Part shown: in pieces, positions 1,108-49,204 of the stretch | How positions within the stretch are numbered: the first letter of the stretch is position 1 | How the letters are laid out: every line of letters begins with the position of its first letter | From: a virus | Length of the DNA: 64,000 nucleotides | Virus record (IMG/VR): IMGVR_UViG_3300045135_000898 | Coordinates: 17,971-81,970 of that record | Strand: one strand, 5' to 3' | The notes under the pieces: generated by a model | Database searches by the model: none | The model's input: only the letters and a program-made list of their open reading frames with translations | What the model was told of the DNA's origin: nothing | Translations under genes and position numbers: made by a program

Positions 1108-3399
1108 TTAGATCTTACAGCTTTCGCATTCGCCGTCATCGTAATCAGACTGCTCAAGATCAGGAAGATCTTCGTCAGGTGATTCGCCTGCGCCGTCATG
1201 CGTATTGTTATAATAAAGCTGTTTACCACCGTACTTGTAGAAAGTAACGATATCTTTAAGCAATTGCGACATAGGTACCTTTGAATCATCAAAGTGCTCA
1301 GGATTGTAACTAGTGTTTACACTGATACCTTGGTCAATGTACTTCTGAAGTACAGCACAAACTTTAAGATAACCATCAGGTGATGTTTGATCCCAAAGCA
1401 AATCATATTTATTTTTAAGGTGGTGGTACCCAGGAACAACCTGTGCCATTACACCGTCCTTAGACTGCTTGTATGATACCAACGCGCGAGGTGGTTCAAT
1501 ACCATTCGTACTGTTACTAATCTGAGCTGACGTTTCAGCCGGCATTAATGCCATCAGAGTAGAGTTACGAATACCAGTTTGTTTGATCTTAGCTCGTAAA
1601 CCTTCCCAATCCATACGTTCTTTATGTGGAACAAGTTCATCTACATCTTTCTTGTATGTATTATTCGGGAATATACCGCGAGCATACTTTGTCTCACGAA
1701 TTAGTCCAGGTATACCACGTTCAGCAGCCAGATCAACAGATGCTTTAATTAGATAATAAGACCATGCCTCAGCGTATTCGTCGATTGTTTCAAGAGCGCC
1801 ATCATCATATTTAAGACCGCGTTTCGCCAAGAAGTAAGCTAGGTTAATAATACCTACACCTAATGGACGACGTCCCATTGTTGAAATCTCAGCTGCTTTA
1901 ACTGGATACGCTTGGTAATCCAATAGCGCATCTAGAGCTCGTACAGCAATGTTACAGTACTTTTCAAATTCTGACGGATGGTTAATGACACCCCAGTTAA
2001 TTGCCGACAACGTACATAGAGAGATCTCGCCTTCAGAATCATCAACAGAAGATAGAGGTTTTGTGGGTAAGTCAATTTCACAACATAGGTTAGACTGTTT
2101 AATTGGAGCAAGACTTTCAATGAATGAGCCATGTGTATTAGCGTGGTCTACGTTCATTAGGTAAATACGACCAGTGTCTTTACGTTCCTGTAAGAATGAA
2201 CTAAACACTTCCATAGCAGGTAAAGTCTTCTTACGAATATTCTTATCTGCTTCGTACTTTTCGTACAGACGTTTAAATTCATCTTGGTCAGCATAAAACG
2301 CATCCATAAGACCAGGAACATCATTAGGACTAAACAGTGTAATGTTACCACCCGTTAGTAGACGTTCGTACATTGTCTTATTGAATTGGAATGCATAGTC
2401 CATGTGGCGTACACGGTTTTCTTCAGTGCCTTTGTTATTTTTCAGTACAACAAGGTTTTCAAACTCAAGATGCCAAACTGGAAGGTAAATTGTAGCTGCA
2501 CCGCCCCTTACACCACCCTGTGAGCAGGATTTGACCGCCGCTTGGAAATATTTGAGGAAAGGTATAAGTCCCGTGTGTACAACTGATCCATCGCCGACTC
2601 TAGACCCTTCAGCTCGGATCGAACCTGCTCCAATTCCGATGCCAGCTTTCTTAGAGATATAACGAACCACAGAAGAGGCAGTTGAATTAATAGAATCAAG
2701 AGTATCACCGGATTCAATAAGCACGCAAGAACTAAACTGGCGAGTGGGAGTTCGTACACCGGCCATAATAGGTGTTGGTAGACTAATAGCGAAGTTGGAT
2801 ACCGCATCATAAAAGTCCTTTACATAATTTAAACGAGTTTCGGTTGGATAGTTACCAAATAAGGTAGCACCAATCATCATATAAGCAATTTGCGGAGTTT
2901 CATAGATTTTTTTAGTAGAACGGTCTTGTACAAGGTATTTACCTCGGAACTGTTCCATCGCTACATATGTGAAGCTGTCGTCACGAGAATGCTTGATATA
3001 AGCATCTAATTCATTTAACTCTTCTTCAGTGTATGTAGTAAGAATATCAGCATCGTATACGCCAAAATCAACGTTTGTTTTAATCACATCAATTAAAGGT
3101 AATGGCGTGTATTGCTGGTAAACCTCTTTACGAAGTTTGTAGTTTACCAAACGAGCTGCAACATATTGATAGTTCGGAGTATTCTCAGAAATCAGTTCAG
3201 CTGCTGACTTAATCAACAATTCGTGGATATCATCAGATGAAATTTTATCGTATAGCTGAATGTTAGCACGCATTTCAATCTCTGAAATAGAGACGCCATT
3301 AATACCTTCGGTGGCCCACTCTAGGACTCGATGTACTTTATCTAGGTCGAACGGCTCAAGAGATCCTTTGCGTTTGGTTATCTTGATGGTTTTGATCAT
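1108..3399 (-). CDS. nrdA: Ribonucleotide reductase class Ia alpha subunit
   Basis: Catalytic large subunit of aerobic ribonucleotide reductase, 763 aa, normal full length. An N-terminal ATP-cone allosteric domain (KITKRKGSLEPFDLDKV, residues about 5-25) precedes the ten-stranded barrel. Active-site cysteines are visible in FSSCVLIESGD, NLCCEIDLP and CTLSAINWG, and the C-terminal CESCKI holds the shuttle cysteines that exchange electrons with a thioredoxin or glutaredoxin. ATG 3399 follows GAGAAG. A dedicated early promoter lies at 3437-3465 and a terminator at 1034-1062. It partners the nrdB product encoded downstream. Confidence 0.98.
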   Translation of the reverse strand: MIKTIKITKRKGSLEPFDLDKVHRVLEWATEGINGVSISEIEMRANIQLYDKISSDDIHELLIKSAAELISENTPNYQYVAARLVNYKLRKEVYQQYTPLPLIDVIKTNVDFGVYDADILTTYTEEELNELDAYIKHSRDDSFTYVAMEQFRGKYLVQDRSTKKIYETPQIAYMMIGATLFGNYPTETRLNYVKDFYDAVSNFAISLPTPIMAGVRTPTRQFSSCVLIESGDTLDSINSTASSVVRYISKKAGIGIGAGSIRAEGSRVGDGSVVHTGLIPFLKYFQAAVKSCSQGGVRGGAATIYLPVWHLEFENLVVLKNNKGTEENRVRHMDYAFQFNKTMYERLLTGGNITLFSPNDVPGLMDAFYADQDEFKRLYEKYEADKNIRKKTLPAMEVFSSFLQERKDTGRIYLMNVDHANTHGSFIESLAPIKQSNLCCEIDLPTKPLSSVDDSEGEISLCTLSAINWGVINHPSEFEKYCNIAVRALDALLDYQAYPVKAAEISTMGRRPLGVGIINLAYFLAKRGLKYDDGALETIDEYAEAWSYYLIKASVDLAAERGIPGLIRETKYARGIFPNNTYKKDVDELVPHKERMDWEGLRAKIKQTGIRNSTLMALMPAETSAQISNSTNGIEPPRALVSYKQSKDGVMAQVVPGYHHLKNKYDLLWDQTSPDGYLKVCAVLQKYIDQGISVNTSYNPEHFDDSKVPMSQLLKDIVTFYKYGGKQLYYNNTHDGAGESPDEDLPDLEQSDYDDGECESCKI

Positions 3400-3436
3400 A
3401 TGTTCTTCTCACTTGGTTTAATAATTTATAGAGCTA

Positions 3437-3465
3437 ATTATATATCATTAGCACTTCGATGTAAA
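3437..3465 (-). promoter_or_regulatory. Early promoter for nrdA
   Basis: TTTACA (3465-3460), 17-base spacer, TATAAT (3442-3437). It lies back to back with the plus-strand promoter at 3499-3527. Confidence 0.75.
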
Positions 3466-3498
3466 TAGCCTTGGTGCATAAAAATGTAAAAAAACATA

Positions 3499-3527
3499 TT
3501 TACATCTGAAGAAAAGTGTGGTATAAT
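3499..3527 (+). promoter_or_regulatory. Plus-strand sigma70-like promoter pointing against all genes (copy A)
   Basis: TTTACA (3499-3504), 17-base spacer, TATAAT (3522-3527), with an A-rich tract upstream. It diverges from the nrdA promoter and would transcribe antisense into the spanin genes. The -10 and the following 31 bases are repeated exactly at 46245-46281. Confidence 0.65.
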
Positions 3528-3558
3528 AGATTAACGATCTGGGGGAAGGTAGATATAC
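3522..3558 (+). repeat. 37-base exact repeat, copy A
   Basis: Identical to 46245-46281 and in the same orientation. It starts at the -10 box (TATAATAG) and continues through the predicted RNA start into GATCTGGGGGAAGGTAGAT. The G-rich core is flanked by ATCT and AGAT, which could form a short hairpin. Both copies lie between a minus-strand early promoter and the 3' end of a minus-strand gene. Confidence 0.9.
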
Positions 3559-3560
3559 CT

Positions 3561-3917
3561 TTATTCAGGCTTTACAGCCTCTTCGTAATAAAGTATAATT
3601 TCCTTTTGTTGTTCAATGTAACGACGCAGCTCAGCGAAGTTAAGAGATAGGTTTTCGTAGTCTTTAATTGAAATAGCAATGTAGACACGGTCGCCGTTTT
3701 TATCTTCGAACTCAGTAATGAACTCTTCGTAATTATCTTTTGTAACAACGTAGATCTTAACTCGATTGAGTTGAGCTTGTTTGGGTCTAGCTACAATTGG
3801 AACTTCAGTCTTTACAGTGTTAGTTACTGTTACTATCTTCGGTTCCGGTATCAGGCTGCTGCACCCCATTAGGGTTAGTGATGTCAGCAAGATCAGTCCA
3901 TAATTCATCAGTCGCAT
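3561..3917 (-). CDS. o-spanin: outer-membrane lysis lipoprotein (Rz1-like)
   Basis: A 118-aa lipoprotein with an N-terminal signal and a lipobox ending LMGCSS (Cys about residue 19), predicted to be lipidated and anchored in the outer membrane. Its start lies inside the 3' end of the i-spanin gene in another frame, the classic arrangement of two-component spanins such as T4 pseT.3/pseT.2. The C-terminal half (NLSLNFAELRRYIEQQKE) is probably the periplasmic helix that meets the i-spanin to fuse the two membranes at lysis. ATG 3917 with AGAG upstream is preferred over an earlier TTG. Confidence 0.85.
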   Translation of the reverse strand: MRLMNYGLILLTSLTLMGCSSLIPEPKIVTVTNTVKTEVPIVARPKQAQLNRVKIYVVTKDNYEEFITEFEDKNGDRVYIAISIKDYENLSLNFAELRRYIEQQKEIILYYEEAVKPE

Positions 3918-4239
3918 TTTGCATTCTCTTTTCAATTAATCCTGGCTTCTTAAGAGCAAGCTGAGTTAAGTTATGCTTTTGTAGTGTGTTCCTTAACTCA
4001 TCGCCGTATTGTTCAGCCTTTTGTAAATCAGCGGAAAGCTGTAGGTTCATCTCATTAAGACGTTTAGTTTCAGATTCCATTAGCCTTAACGAGTCTTCAC
4101 TCAGTTTCACTGCGGTTTCCATCTTGGCGACATTTGCTCTTGCAGTTTCAAGATCGGACTGCAACTTGGTGACATACCAATAGCCACCAGCTGCTGCAGT
4201 AAGAACCGCAGTGATAATCATAATTCTAATATACATCAT
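3820..4239 (-). CDS. i-spanin: inner-membrane lysis protein (Rz-like)
   Basis: A 139-aa type II membrane protein: one N-terminal transmembrane helix (residues about 4-22, IMIITAVLTAAAGGYWYV), then a long periplasmic coiled coil rich in Glu, Lys and Leu (about 25-95), then a polar tail. It pairs with the overlapping o-spanin (98-base overlap) to span the periplasm and fuse inner and outer membranes after the peptidoglycan is degraded. No holin or endolysin is recognised beside it. ATG ATG occurs at 4239/4236; the first is used. Confidence 0.85.
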   Translation of the reverse strand: MMYIRIMIITAVLTAAAGGYWYVTKLQSDLETARANVAKMETAVKLSEDSLRLMESETKRLNEMNLQLSADLQKAEQYGDELRNTLQKHNLTQLALKKPGLIEKRMQNATDELWTDLADITNPNGVQQPDTGTEDSNSN

Positions 4240-5923: not shown

Positions 5924-6288
5924 ATCTTTCTCAGTGCCTCTACTATCTTAGTATCCAACGGGATTTCTGGTAATGCGTCATCGCCGATGTAATTAAGATA
6001 TATCAAAAATGTTTTAAGGTACGACCAATGTTTACGACTAACTTTGTAGAATGTTAGCTTATGACCGCCTTCTATACCAAACACATTATAAATTACAATC
6101 AGATGATTAAGAATTAACCTTTCTTGTAAATCATCGTTTACTTCGTATCTTTTAAACAATCGTTTAAGATACTTAAATCTGTTCAAGTCGTCGTTGAATT
6201 CGTCAACGCTTGTACATTGAGGATTATCGTATACATGCATAGCATACATAGCGAAGTTATCCTCATTAATGATGTCGAATAAATGCAT
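5920..6288 (-). CDS. Conserved T4-like phage protein of unknown function (122 aa)
   Basis: A small helical protein of a family I know from many distant T4 relatives (FDIINEDNFAMYAMHVYDNP, RFKYLKRLFKRYE, LILNHLIVIYNVFG). No catalytic motif is visible. The N-terminus MHLFDIINE|D has an I-x-E step and might also be trimmed by the prohead protease, but the family conservation of this region argues that it belongs to the fold. It is the first gene after the late promoter at 6322-6329; AGGG lies five bases before the ATG at 6288. Confidence 0.7.
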   Translation of the reverse strand: MHLFDIINEDNFAMYAMHVYDNPQCTSVDEFNDDLNRFKYLKRLFKRYEVNDDLQERLILNHLIVIYNVFGIEGGHKLTFYKVSRKHWSYLKTFLIYLNYIGDDALPEIPLDTKIVEALRKI

Positions 6289-6291
6289 AAA

Positions 6292-6321
6292 AACCCTATA
6301 AAGATCAACTCAATATAGGGT
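6292..6321 (-). terminator. Terminator hairpin overlapping a late promoter
   Basis: On the minus strand AACCCTATA (6321-6313) pairs with TATAGGGTT (6300-6292), followed by TTT. The left arm begins right after the TATAAATA box, so RNA started at that late promoter would lack part or all of the left arm and escape termination. Confidence 0.6.
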
Positions 6322-6329
6322 TATTTATA
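6322..6329 (-). promoter_or_regulatory. T4-type late promoter box
   Basis: TATAAATA on the minus strand, 34 bases before the ATG at 6288; recognised in T4 by the gp55/gp33/clamp complex. Confidence 0.75.
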
Positions 6330-6334
6330 TGCTA

Positions 6335-6559
6335 TTACTTTTTCTTTTTACGAGATACTTTCTTAACAATCTTTTCGACAATTGTATCTTCGGCAGGTTC
6401 TTCTACTTCAGCAACTTCAACCGCAGGAGCAGGTTTAACACCGTTCCATTCTGCGATCTGTTCTGCTGTTAGGCGAGCAACCTTTAGTCGTTCGCCTTTT
6501 GCATTGTAGTAACCGTCTTCTTTTGCGATAGCATCTTTAAGCCAAGTTGGTTTAGCCAT
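6335..6559 (-). CDS. Small conserved protein with basic tail (74 aa)
   Basis: Begins MAKPTWLKDAIAKEDGYYNAKGERLK, then an AEQIAEWNG helix and a low-complexity acidic/proline region that ends in a run of Lys and Arg (KIVKKVSRKKKK). No enzyme motif. It lies two bases downstream of the 573-aa gene and ahead of the terminator at 6292-6321. It could be a small DNA-binding or head-internal protein; it lacks a capsid-targeting peptide. Function unknown. Confidence 0.65.
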   Translation of the reverse strand: MAKPTWLKDAIAKEDGYYNAKGERLKVARLTAEQIAEWNGVKPAPAVEVAEVEEPAEDTIVEKIVKKVSRKKKK

Positions 6560-44478: not shown

Positions 44479-45539
44479 TATGCAATCTCCATATTTGACG
44501 CTTCAGTAAATAACGTACGCATTAGTACTTTCATCTTATCTTTATCAAGGTCAGTCTCAACAGCCTCAACGTAAGAATCAAGCAACGATGGCGTATCCTC
44601 TACCGAGATACTTTCATCTTCAACGTTTTCGCCCAAGAACTCAGAAAAAGTTTCAGCAATTTTCAATTCATGAGTATCAACATTTTGTAAGCGGTCAATA
44701 AACTTATCAAAAGAATACGGATCCGACTTCTTAACAACAACCACCTTAACGAATTTGTCTTTAACTGATTCAACGTCGTATGTACTATAATCGTTTTCTT
44801 CGTCGTTGTAAACAATCTTTTCAAACATAGTGATTGGATTGCGTACAGGAGTCAATTCACGTGTTTCAGTATCAAAAACATGGAAGTACTTAGGGTCGTC
44901 AGCATCAGCCCAGGTAAATTCCATTTGAGATCCAAGGTAGCGAATGTTGCCTTCTTCAGATGCAGTGTGGAAATGACCTGACCAAACATGCTCAAATCTT
45001 GATAGTACGCTTGCATCCATGCCGTGCATGTTCTTAACGCCTTTCATAAGATCAAACCCAGCAAGCTCAAAGTGGCCACCAAGAATTGACGCCTTACAGT
45101 TTTTAAGGAACTTCATGGAGTCGGTATAGTTCTCATTATTGATCCAAGGAATAAGAGCAATTGAACAACCATCGTAATCCATTACTCGTGGTTCCATAAT
45201 AATGTTAACATTGCCTGTGTAATAACCAAGTAGCTCTTTAAGCGAACATAAATCATTAGTGTTTTTGTAAAATACGTCATGGTTACCTGGGATAATATCC
45301 ATGGTAATACCTTCACGTTTTAGTACGTCAAGAAACACTTTACGGTTATGGTTCAATGCTTTAAAGTTTACATATTTACGATGTTCATAATAATCGCCCA
45401 GGTGGATAATGGTTTTGATACCATGTTCCTTTAGGTATGGAAAGAAGACATCCGAATAAAACGCCTCCTGATAGTTCATAAACACTTCAGAGCTGTTACG
45501 TGCTCCACAGTGAGTATCATTCAAAATCGCAATTTTCAT
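44478..45539 (-). CDS. 47: Recombination endonuclease subunit, Mre11/SbcD-like (T4 gp47)
   Basis: 353 aa metallophosphoesterase: ILNDTHCG (motif I), IIHLGDYYEHRKYVNF (motif II), IIPGNHDVF (motif III), ILGGHFEL and WSGHFHT (later His motifs). The C-terminal capping domain follows. It partners gp46. It overlaps gene 55 start-to-stop by one base. Confidence 0.97.
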   Translation of the reverse strand: MKIAILNDTHCGARNSSEVFMNYQEAFYSDVFFPYLKEHGIKTIIHLGDYYEHRKYVNFKALNHNRKVFLDVLKREGITMDIIPGNHDVFYKNTNDLCSLKELLGYYTGNVNIIMEPRVMDYDGCSIALIPWINNENYTDSMKFLKNCKASILGGHFELAGFDLMKGVKNMHGMDASVLSRFEHVWSGHFHTASEEGNIRYLGSQMEFTWADADDPKYFHVFDTETRELTPVRNPITMFEKIVYNDEENDYSTYDVESVKDKFVKVVVVKKSDPYSFDKFIDRLQNVDTHELKIAETFSEFLGENVEDESISVEDTPSLLDSYVEAVETDLDKDKMKVLMRTLFTEASNMEIA

Positions 45540-46126
45540 TAACCAAGTTCTCCAAAGAACAACTCAAGACCTTCTGGGTTGCTCTTATCTTCTTTCTTTT
45601 CGTATTTAGCGAATTCTTTAATTACACGGTCTTGGTCGTGTACTCGTTCAATGCGTGATCTCAATTCATCGACAAATGCGTATTCATCACCTGCTTCATA
45701 TCCATTTTCATCTTGGACTGTAAAGAAGTCTTCGTATCCACCTTTCTCAATGAATTTAAATTTTACGTCCTGCTGTTTCTTTTCCTTTTGGATTCGACGT
45801 AAGAACGCGTAATATGAGATCTGCGTAAAATACGCAAATGCATTTGGTAGACCAGTACGAGTTGCCTTCTCAATGTCATAGTTCATGATTGCCTTAAGAC
45901 TATTTTCAACAGCATCCATCACCATCTCTTCACGGTATGTGTACCTAATGAAGTTAGACTTGTATGATAGACCTTCTGCAATCTTAAGAAAACACTCAGC
46001 TATGTAATCTGGAATGATAGGAACAACTTCGTCTTTATCTTTAGCTTCGTTGACTGACTTGACGTAATCGCAAACTGCCAATGAGAACTCTTTATTGTTG
46101 ACGTAATGTGGTTTATCTTTTGCCAT
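45539..46126 (-). CDS. 55: Late-promoter sigma factor (T4 gp55)
   Basis: 195 aa minimal sigma factor that directs host RNA polymerase to TATAAATA promoters. HYVNNKEFSLAVCDYVKSV, IAEGLSYKSNFIRYTYREEM and LPNAFAYFTQISYYAFLRRI match T4 gp55 regions. The C-terminus GLELFFGELG corresponds to the T4 gp55 clamp-binding tail (SLDFLYEAND). It explains the many late boxes before structural genes. Own early promoter 46160-46188. Confidence 0.95.
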   Translation of the reverse strand: MAKDKPHYVNNKEFSLAVCDYVKSVNEAKDKDEVVPIIPDYIAECFLKIAEGLSYKSNFIRYTYREEMVMDAVENSLKAIMNYDIEKATRTGLPNAFAYFTQISYYAFLRRIQKEKKQQDVKFKFIEKGGYEDFFTVQDENGYEAGDEYAFVDELRSRIERVHDQDRVIKEFAKYEKKEDKSNPEGLELFFGELG

Positions 46127-46159: not shown

Positions 46160-46188
46160 ATTATACTATAGTCTTCGCTAAATGTAAA
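46160..46188 (-). promoter_or_regulatory. Early promoter for the 55/47/46 operon
   Basis: TTTACA (46188-46183), 17-base spacer, TATAAT (46165-46160). It lies back to back with the plus-strand promoter at 46222-46250. Confidence 0.75.
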
Positions 46189-46221: not shown

Positions 46222-46250
46222 TTTACATAATGATGTTTATGTGTTATAAT
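46222..46250 (+). promoter_or_regulatory. Plus-strand sigma70-like promoter against all genes (copy B)
   Basis: TTTACA (46222-46227), 17-base spacer, TATAAT (46245-46250), with A-rich upstream tract. Divergent from the gene 55 promoter. It would read antisense into the Sm-like gene and uvsW. Confidence 0.65.
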
Positions 46251-46281
46251 AGATTAACGATCTGGGGGAAGGTAGATATAC
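46245..46281 (+). repeat. 37-base exact repeat, copy B
   Basis: Identical to 3522-3558. Downstream, ATGGCC-GAA-GGCCAT followed by TTTATTA (46292-46313) could end a plus-strand RNA of roughly 50-60 bases; read on the minus strand the same bases give GGCC-TTCG-GGCC after the Sm-like gene. Confidence 0.9.
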
Positions 46282-46309
46282 AACCAAAGGTATGGCCGAA
46301 GGCCATTTA

Positions 46310-46696
46310 TTAGTGTATAGTAGTATCGGTATTTGGAGTGTCAGGAATAGGATCTTCTTCAGGTTCTAATTTATCTATATCCTGTTGAGCAAGCGAGATT
46401 AACGCTTTAAGGTATTGTTCCTTTGCGTCTAATTCAAGTGTAGCGAATGCAACGATGTTGGACTTTTGAATGGACACCAAATTACGAACAGCCATTGGCA
46501 TCCATTCTTTAAACGTGTACGTGAACAAACCATCTTCAGTAGCGTACTCTCGTAGAGCCAAAGGCTCTTCAATTAGCATAACTGATTCATCTGTCTTATT
46601 ACGATTAATGATAGCAAAGACTTCATCTCCACTTGTGAGCTTAAGGTGCATTACCTTTAAAGCCTTTGCCTCTTCACGTATCAGTTCATCACTCAT
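46310..46696 (-). CDS. Sm-like fold phage protein, paralogue of 31382-31669 (128 aa)
   Basis: HLKLTSGDEVFAIINRN, VMLIEEPLALREYA, TFKEWMPMAVRNLVSIQKSN and AKEQYLKALISL follow the same order as the 95-aa protein near polymerase, with an added N-terminal helix and an acidic, proline-rich tail (LEPEEDPIPDTPNTD). Putative RNA-binding Sm-type beta fold. It overlaps uvsW by four bases. The two copies lie beside DNA polymerase and beside the late sigma/uvsW genes respectively. Confidence 0.65.
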   Translation of the reverse strand: MSDELIREEAKALKVMHLKLTSGDEVFAIINRNKTDESVMLIEEPLALREYATEDGLFTYTFKEWMPMAVRNLVSIQKSNIVAFATLELDAKEQYLKALISLAQQDIDKLEPEEDPIPDTPNTDTTIH

Positions 46697-48195
46697 ATAT
46701 CAATCTCAAAAATTTTATATCTGAACTTCTCTCTACTATATATCTTGATCCTTTCGGCTGCATGGTTCAAGGTATAGTTCTTTTTCTTTCGCCAATGGAA
46801 GTCATCAGCAATATCGTACAGTTTTGTTGTACGGTTATCATCTGACTTACGAAGACCTCGACCGATACTTTGAAGGATCTTGATCTGCGATTTTGACGGA
46901 GATGCAAATATAATATTATGTAGGTTCTTAATATTTATCCCTGTACTAAACGTACCGAGTGACGCTACAATAATTGCATTCTTTTCTTTTTCAGTAATCT
47001 TACGAACCGCTTCTCGAGTATCAACATCGGTTGCACCCGATACAAAAAATACCTTACGGCGATGATGCGCCTTTTCAAGTATTAAATCGTATAATGGTTT
47101 ACCGTGCTTCTCAACGAATTGGAATAACACAAGAGTATTACCGTCTTGGTCCAAAGCAAGATTACGAATGAAGTTATTTCGTTTTTGATGTTTAACGATA
47201 AAATCAACTTCATCTTGGTATTTCATTTTTACGACATTCTGACAAGTAACATCATCATACTTCATTAGTAGTACACTAATCTCAAGATCAGACAACGCAC
47301 CGCTATCCATAAGATCTTTTGTTGATGTAACTTTATATGATGGACCAAAATGTCCTTCCAATACTAATTTGTGTACCTGCGATCCATCGAGAGTACCTGT
47401 TGTACCAAATCGATATTCTGCTTCTTTACACTTACTTAGTATTGATGTTAATGATTTCGCTTTAAAGTTATGAGCTTCATCACCAATAACCATGCCAAAC
47501 TGCTCAAACCATGGAGTGTGCAATTTGTATATTGACTGCCATGTTGTAATTACGATCTTTTCTTCTTTCGCAATTTTAGGCTGTCCTGCGTAAATCATAT
47601 GACATAATTTACCCGCATCGAATCCATCGTCATGTTCGGAGTAATCAGCAAAGTCTCCGTACATCTGCTTAACTAACGACGTAGTCGGTACTACAAGCAA
47701 GATCTTCTTATTAGGATGCTTATCCAGAAAGTACCTTACCAAAGAGTAAATGATAAACGATTTACCCGACGCGGTTGGACTAATCAGTAGAGCACGTTTA
47801 TTACTAATACCATGATGAATGGCATCTAACTGATAGTCACGGTGTTCAATAGGTTCGCCTCTTGACGTAAAGGTACAATCATTAAGATAGTCAAGATTTA
47901 CGATACCTGTCTGAGATTCAGGAACCCCATAGTAATTATCGTGCTCAATTTCTATATCGTACTGACGAGCATTGGCGAATTCCTGAAGGTACTTAAAGAG
48001 TCCACCTGGGAGCTCTCTTTCACGGCTGTTCCATAACCGTATTTTGCCATCCCACATTTTATTCTTATATGCAGGATGGAACTGATAGCCTTCAGCATAA
48101 AAACAAAAGAAGTCCATCAATTCATTAGAGATGCCTGGGTCAGCATCAATATGCAAAAACGCGTGGTTCTTTTTACGAACCTTTATTGTATCCAT
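46693..48195 (-). CDS. uvsW: UvsW helicase (superfamily 2)
   Basis: 500 aa. An N-terminal DNA-binding module (FFCFYAEGYQFHPAYKNKMW, WDGKIRLW) precedes helicase motifs: Walker A SPTASGKSFIIYSL, motif II MVIGDEAHNF, motif III FGTTGTLDG, motif V VASLGTFSTGINIKN and motif VI QSIGRGLRKSD. It unwinds R-loops and recombination intermediates, switching replication from origins to recombination. ATG 48195 overlaps the uvsY stop (TAATG); a start 27 bases upstream is rejected. Confidence 0.96.
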   Translation of the reverse strand: MDTIKVRKKNHAFLHIDADPGISNELMDFFCFYAEGYQFHPAYKNKMWDGKIRLWNSRERELPGGLFKYLQEFANARQYDIEIEHDNYYGVPESQTGIVNLDYLNDCTFTSRGEPIEHRDYQLDAIHHGISNKRALLISPTASGKSFIIYSLVRYFLDKHPNKKILLVVPTTSLVKQMYGDFADYSEHDDGFDAGKLCHMIYAGQPKIAKEEKIVITTWQSIYKLHTPWFEQFGMVIGDEAHNFKAKSLTSILSKCKEAEYRFGTTGTLDGSQVHKLVLEGHFGPSYKVTSTKDLMDSGALSDLEISVLLMKYDDVTCQNVVKMKYQDEVDFIVKHQKRNNFIRNLALDQDGNTLVLFQFVEKHGKPLYDLILEKAHHRRKVFFVSGATDVDTREAVRKITEKEKNAIIVASLGTFSTGINIKNLHNIIFASPSKSQIKILQSIGRGLRKSDDNRTTKLYDIADDFHWRKKKNYTLNHAAERIKIYSREKFRYKIFEIDI

Positions 48196-48641
48196 TATAC
48201 ACCACTTGTAAACTTCCGCCATTCGATGGCATTACGAATATTTTGGTGCCTCCACTTAATGTTCTCCATAATATCTGACAATGTATCAATCATCGTCTTC
48301 AAGTATTCAATTTTGGCTTGAGCTTCTTGGATATGTGGATCAGAATCATAATAATAATCCATCTCACCTTTCAGGACTTTAAGACCGTTCAGCGCATCAT
48401 ATTCCCAACCTAGCTCGTCGATTTGATCTTTCGACATTTTGCCATTATACCATAACCACTTATTCTTCAATAGAACTTTAAAGTCGGCTTCTCTTTTCTT
48501 CAGTTGCAATTTATATATCGAGAGTATTTCGAGGTACTTCGAGTGTAGCTTTGCAGAGTTAAGACTCGCTTCGTCTAAATTGTTTTCATCAATTCGCGAG
48601 TCTTTTTTCCACATTTCGAGGATTTCATCCAATTGTAGCAT
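48195..48641 (-). CDS. uvsY: UvsY recombination mediator
   Basis: 148 aa, helical. LDEILEMWKKDSRIDENNLD, SAKLHSKYLEILSIYKLQLK, WLWYNGKMSKDQ and YLKTMIDTLSDIMENIKWRH-type segments correspond to T4 UvsY. It loads UvsX (16076-17131) on ssDNA coated with gp32. It sits next to uvsW as in T4 and in marine relatives, downstream of head genes. Confidence 0.9.
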   Translation of the reverse strand: MLQLDEILEMWKKDSRIDENNLDEASLNSAKLHSKYLEILSIYKLQLKKREADFKVLLKNKWLWYNGKMSKDQIDELGWEYDALNGLKVLKGEMDYYYDSDPHIQEAQAKIEYLKTMIDTLSDIMENIKWRHQNIRNAIEWRKFTSGV

Positions 48642-49196: not shown

Positions 49197-49204
49197 TATT
49201 TATA
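49197..49204 (-). promoter_or_regulatory. T4-type late promoter box
   Basis: TATAAATA on the minus strand, 25 bases before ATG 49172 and just after the terminator of gene 23. Confidence 0.82.

Follow-up and report, generated by a model that had tools for sequence, protein, structure and literature searches.

The lambdoid phages carry nut/put elements, small hairpin elements just behind early promoters. They are the same within a phage, differ between phages and co-evolve with a factor. In mitochondrial CSB II and ColE1 RNA II, a G-rich transcript start is thought to favour a persistent hybrid, and G-runs in general favour RNA-DNA hybrids. In bacteriophage T4, the replication origins are transcript-primed RNA-DNA hybrids (R-loops). 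An early promoter is apparently needed at oriE, three of the origins are found close to points where transcription changes strand, early DNA synthesis mostly begins in late-transcribed regions, and UvsW unwinds R-loops (PMC3016281). We analysed a window of 64,000 nucleotides from a T4-like phage (positions 17971-81970 of the 82-kb virus contig IMGVR_UViG_3300045135_000898). It contains a conserved, non-coding early promoter module, oriented against the surrounding genes, at the junction between a late gene block and the early block headed by gp55. This backward promoter is probably a non-coding control or replication-start site. As its mechanism we prefer, though weakly, a replication start primed by an R-loop.

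The window holds two copies of the module (Table 1). In each, a 31-nt leader follows the promoter directly. It consists of the inverted repeat AGATT-AAC-GATCT, then GGGGGAAGG, then TATAC. From the -10 box through TATAC, the two copies match at 37/37 positions. Outside this stretch the agreement falls to about the chance level, with 6/17 matches in the promoter spacers and 4/31 in the nucleotides past TATAC. The copy-to-copy match has E=5.6e-19 in the scope of the whole 82-kb record. By itself, the pattern TATAAT-N22..28-TATAC is weak (2 hits against 0.49 expected), so the repeat exceeds chance because of the shared leader and not because of this pattern. Since spacers and flanks are at chance level, the copies are not a recent, undecayed duplication; a single stretch with sharp borders has stayed identical. 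What is conserved is the start region, rather than any downstream gene. The original prediction, made from the letters alone, had proposed a plus-strand promoter repeat with a second copy near gp55 in a divergent arrangement. Both points hold, and the copies point away from minus-strand early promoters at 46188 (gp55) and 3465 (nrdA).

No exact copies of the window leader were found in other viral contigs. Likewise, a blastn search of phage records with this region gave no matches, and Rfam gave none at the curated threshold. We considered TATAC as a -10-like pause element and rejected it, because its sixth base is not conserved. A further plus-strand TTTACA-17-TATAAT lies at 3571-3599, within the 3' end of the spanin gene and 72 bp past copy 1.

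As relatives, we took eighty gp55 loci from viral contigs. In most of them, gp55 is preceded by this backward promoter. At the uvsW/Sm-like/gp55 junction the module occurs with about 60 distinct window-type leaders, and the distance from the -10 box to TATAC is constant at 23-27 nt. The boxes are conserved as TTTACA or TTGACA, 17 nt and TATAAT, which fits a promoter for the host RNA polymerase, perhaps in modified form. An unbiased scan of viral contigs with TTTACA-N17-TATAAT-N22..27-TATAC returned G-rich hits, nearly all between uvsW/Sm-like and gp55. In the complete phage C48C1 (OQ984149), about 15 strong promoters are sense and a single one, the module, is antisense.

Gene insertions separate the module from its neighbours. 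Three loci (L031, L035 and L068) have a nucleotidyltransferase-like gene between the Sm-like gene and gp55 (about 3300-3960), and the module stays on the Sm-like side. In L041, genes are inserted on the other side, and it stays by gp55. The module belongs to the junction and to neither flanking gene, since its position is kept when genes are inserted on either side. In Sinorhizobium phage phiM12 (L210), a backward TTGACA..TATAAT upstream of gp55 is followed by CAGGA-ATG-TCCTG, which suggests that the module may reach beyond marine phages. As a separate observation, the reverse strand of L187 at about 6100-6480 carries a tandem duplication that comprises the module and part of the Sm-like 3' end. 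Its two leaders are no longer alike, but both retain the promoter and TATAC.

The gp55 loci of cyanophages and pelagiphages show the same backward promoter, with TTGACA or TTGACT, 16 or 17 nt and a TATAAT-like box. Directly after the -10 box, they present a short inverted repeat that encloses TGT, such as AACCT-TGTAG-AGGTT, AACAG-TGTCG-CTGTT, AGACT-ATGT-AGTCT or AACGG-TGT-CCGTT. The TGT is present in 63/63 distinct cyanophage sequences and in 50/52 of those from pelagiphages. The stems are in excess of what composition shuffles give (z 15.4 and 9.7, respectively). More than 20 unrelated arm sequences surround the invariant TGT, and own arms pair better than swapped arms, with z 3.3 in cyanophages, 8.6 in pelagiphages and 8.9 for both combined after removal of duplicates. 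Such values are inflated by related sequences, but the many unrelated arm pairs are independent. With respect to strand, T.G pairs in cyanophages favour a plus-strand hairpin, but the arm-swap test is equal for both strands (8.9 against 8.8). We found no convincing second copy of the cyanophage core in complete cyanophages.

If transcription starts as is normal for sigma70, 6-8 nt after the -10 box, the RNA of these two groups would not include the 5' arm. The repeat would then be a feature of the DNA or of the non-template strand, unless the start is unusual. In the window-type group, an inverted repeat at this spot is not significant overall, the window being one phage that has it. Some window-type phages have small, weak hairpins within the expected RNA (z 2.6-3.3). 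A universal RNA hairpin right after the -10 box was therefore rejected.

The second copies indicate how the leader may work. In three genomes, the window and two others (G001 and G002), the second copy shares the leader of its own genome's gp55 copy. Leader matches within the other two genomes reach 30/31 and 25/26, while the spacers match at 6/17 and 1/17 positions, respectively. The leaders of these three genomes are unlike each other. Because the leader is the same within a genome and different between phages, a phage-specific, co-evolving partner probably reads it in a sequence-specific manner. Reading by something that varies between phages is the simplest inference from the second copies, and within-genome leader identity predicts a phage-specific binding factor. 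A tract this short could be copied by gene conversion, but conversion would need to end at the same border every time. G013 has a looser second copy, in antisense orientation among genes of tail type. No matching second copy is present in C48C1 or G005; a second TATAAT..TATAC hit in G005 is an ordinary gene start and was rejected as a module.

The relatives have no conserved open reading frame behind the module, and the open frames there differ in length. An ATG or GTG often follows TATAC, and the layout resembles normal early starts (AGGATATACTATG), as would be expected of a degenerate gene start that kept an early promoter, a Shine-Dalgarno sequence and an ATG after losing its gene. Nevertheless, this codon derives from the Sm-like protein, whose conserved end reads T-[ILV]-H-stop, and it is missing in C48C1, L041, L046, L058 and copy 1. 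Decay would also not keep the leader. We consider such a remnant highly improbable, and a small peptide was rejected given the differing frames and the origin of the start codon. The T-[ILV]-H C-terminus of the Sm-like protein is itself strongly kept in the pelagiphage and window groups, with a variable remaining tail.

Table 1. Positions of the module copies and neighbouring features in the window.
Feature	Position	Strand	Details
Copy 2 promoter, counter-oriented, sigma70-type (early)	46222-46250	+	-35 TTTACA 46222-46227; 17-nt spacer; -10 TATAAT 46245-46250
Copy 2 leader (conserved start region), 31 nt	46251-46281	+	AGATTAACGATCTGGGGGAAGGTAGATATAC; straight after TATAAT
Hairpin, 6 bp	46292-46306		ATGGCC-GAA-GGCCAT; between module and Sm-like stop codon; outside the conserved module
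Copy 1 promoter	3499-3527	+	TTTACA-17-TATAAT
Copy 1 leader	3528-3558	+	identical to 46251-46281; ends 3 nt short of the last base of the minus-strand spanin gene
Early promoter of gp55	46160-46188	-	TTTACA-17-TATAAT; divergent from copy 2
gp55, late sigma factor	45539-46126	-	first gene of early block; phrog_234 E=4.8e-52
Sm-like gene	46310-46696	-	last of late block; phrog_471 E=1e-9; PF16243 under curated cutoff
uvsW helicase gene	46693-48222	-	UvsW_N PF21241 E=3e-17; phrog_16
Late promoter of gp19-orf148-uvsW-Sm block	49197-49204	-	TATAAATA; block ends at copy 2
Late promoter of block with spanin genes	6322-6329	-	TATAAATA; block ends with spanin genes at copy 1
Early promoter of nrdA	3437-3465	-	divergent from copy 1
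Ribonucleotide reductase gene, here called nrdA	1108-3399	-	named from its translation
Spanin gene beside copy 1	3561-3935	-	phrog_812

All gene-like long open frames of the window are on the minus strand. Strong TTTACA-17-TATAAT promoters stand upstream of minus-strand genes in a dozen or more places. The only two strong intergenic promoters of the plus strand are the two module copies. The late promoter motif TATAAATA occurs at 16 sites, all of the minus strand, against 5.2 expected. Both copies mark borders from late to early operons, with the end of a late block on one side and the early gp55 or nrdA promoter behind.

The sense early promoters of the minus strand (e.g. 1052, 17909, 24929, 28096, 39899 and 40220) share a leader of their own directly after the -10 box, approximately AGMTCYATMAAWT, distinct from that of the antisense module. 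Two terminator-like hairpins of the minus strand, at 1062-1034 and 17931-17896, hold in their loop or stem the TTTACA that serves as -35 box for the following early promoter. TATAAT comes soon after the T-rich tail, and terminator and promoter appear to share bases.

The mechanism that we tentatively favour is a replication start primed by transcription. Early in infection, host RNA polymerase would transcribe backwards into the late genes, and a phage-specific partner would read the start region. The G-rich transcript start and a hairpin-prone non-template strand could then give a persistent RNA-DNA hybrid. This R-loop may serve as the primer for replication, as at T4 origins. Beside the site lies uvsW, which in T4 encodes the helicase that clears such hybrids. 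We infer transcription of the module, activity early in infection and a factor that recognises it. The composition of the leaders is consistent with this mechanism: GGG is present in 57/65 leaders of the window type and in 50/63 from cyanophages, compared with 1/39 sense promoters of window-type phages. The stretch between the two divergent promoters is 88% A+T.

Several observations weigh against a replication start. There is no switch of GC, AT or third-position skew at the module, and an origin defined by base skew was rejected. No A+T-rich unwinding element lies downstream, the 100 nt past both copies having 63% A+T against 60% in the window. T4 R-loops need no specific sequence (PMC3016281), and the leader here is constrained in sequence. 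The 5' arm of cyanophages and pelagiphages is upstream of the expected start, so that hairpin cannot be in the RNA. Pelagiphage leaders are seldom G-rich (GGG in 10/52). Finally, in G001 and G002 an ordinary gene of family phrog_461 has the second copy as its 5' leader (family search on the G001 protein). It is possible, though doubtful, that the whole represents a replication- or transcription-start element of T4-like marine phages. This would be a backward promoter without a gene, with a TGT hairpin or a G-rich leader, a phage-encoded co-evolving reader and an origin beside uvsW and gp55, in cyanophages, pelagiphages, window-type phages and perhaps phiM12.

Early antisense control or insulation is nearly as likely as the replication start. 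The backward RNA would pair with late transcripts (gp19-uvsW-Sm, or the spanins), or polymerases would collide. The effect would be to hold late functions such as UvsW and lysis low early in infection, or to block late read-through into the early operon. Both window copies stand exactly at late-to-early borders that have no intrinsic terminator on the coding strand. The promoter at 46222 (+) faces the Sm-like gene, and any plus-strand transcript from it is predicted to overlap the 3' end of this gene (stop codon 46312-46310). An antisense RNA of about 225 nt, CfrI, is known in cyanophage S-PM2 (PMC2984593). The original prediction had named antisense control of the Sm-like gene and uvsW as its alternative. 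The overlap stands, and would extend to uvsW if the transcript is long; control is possible and unproven. However, pairing would not call for a conserved leader, and it is the leader that is conserved. The overlapped 3' end of the Sm-like gene shows no clear extra constraint at synonymous sites, and a third late-to-early border, at about 28.1-28.8 kb, is without a strong plus-strand promoter. The second copies of G001 and G002 are sense leaders, and that of G013 lies between tail-type genes, which this explanation does not account for.

A recognition site for a phage-encoded regulator explains a different part of the data. The leader would act as a DNA operator over the start, or in the nascent RNA as a nut/put-like antitermination site, and would control the module promoter plus one other promoter where present. 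Such a site accounts well for the co-evolution. The leader is identical within and different between genomes, with a sharp border just after the -10 box. Three genomes show this pattern, in which a phage repeats one element behind its early promoters and the element co-evolves from phage to phage. A repeat that solely binds protein, a finding that would count against the original prediction, is likewise possible, since the co-evolution of copies inside a genome fits a sequence-specific partner. The dyad is centred on the start in cyanophages and pelagiphages, and the small hairpins inside the expected RNA of some window-type phages also agree. It does not account for a promoter without a gene: with the single copy of C48C1, the regulator would serve a gene-less promoter. 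Moreover, the many unrelated arms around an invariant TGT resemble base pairing and not protein half-sites, and no regulator gene was identified. We regard this explanation as rather unlikely.

The original prediction had read copy 2 as the source of a short RNA that ends at the hairpin of Table 1, one of two with a common G-rich 5' end, and had pointed to CCUUCCCCC-type pairing targets in mRNAs. The hairpin exists, and an RNA begun near 46257 would meet its end at about 50 nt. A common G-rich 5' region is probable from the identical leaders. The proposed RNA end there is unsupported. The tail after the hairpin, TTATTAGT, is a poor U-tract, and the minus strand, where the hairpin follows the Sm-like stop, gives the stronger fold (z -3.0 against -1.2 for the plus strand). 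Among relatives, only L013 and L165 have counterparts of the hairpin. Copy 1 has none, and the promoter and leader occur without it in dozens of other phages. A conserved hairpin with a U-tract, the mark of a small RNA with an intrinsic terminator, was thus not found, and the terminator was rejected for lack of conservation. Pairing targets for the leader of at least 10 nt are absent elsewhere in the phage sequences of the window and four relatives, with no excess. An antisense guide was rejected on this ground, and the leader varies between phages. We consider a short trans-acting RNA very unlikely. For T4 itself, a review states that no small trans-acting RNA had been functionally characterised (PMC3014915).

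In the sea, phages of the Kyanoviridae type are abundant. We found no report of replication origins defined for them. The module is one short element in a fixed place with built-in controls, namely two copies in a single genome, natural arm swaps and gene insertions on either side. It makes testable where these phages begin replication, or how early and late transcription are kept apart. We found no published description of it; the subscription literature was largely outside the search, so its novelty is not proven.

Compared with the described systems, the module shares some traits with each. Like nut/put, it has an element just behind an early promoter, identical within a phage and different between phages, with a putative reading factor. 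It differs in being counter-oriented and gene-less, in having the 5' arm upstream of the start in two phage groups, and in that an N-like factor was not found. With CSB II and ColE1 RNA II, its predicted transcript shares a G-rich start; G-runs are not universal in the module, and priming is only proposed. CfrI is likewise an antisense RNA of a T4-like marine phage, as the module RNA is predicted to be. However, it belongs to another locus (psbA and a homing endonuclease gene; PMC2984593; PMC5931967), and we found no report of the module's promoter or leader. In contrast to the T4 R-loop origins (oriF/uvsY, oriG/34 and oriE; PMC3016281), the module has a start sequence strongly conserved within a genome. 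It resembles them as a short promoter-bearing element near strand switches of transcription. The likeness extends to oriE, where an early promoter is apparently used, and to the nearby uvsW gene.
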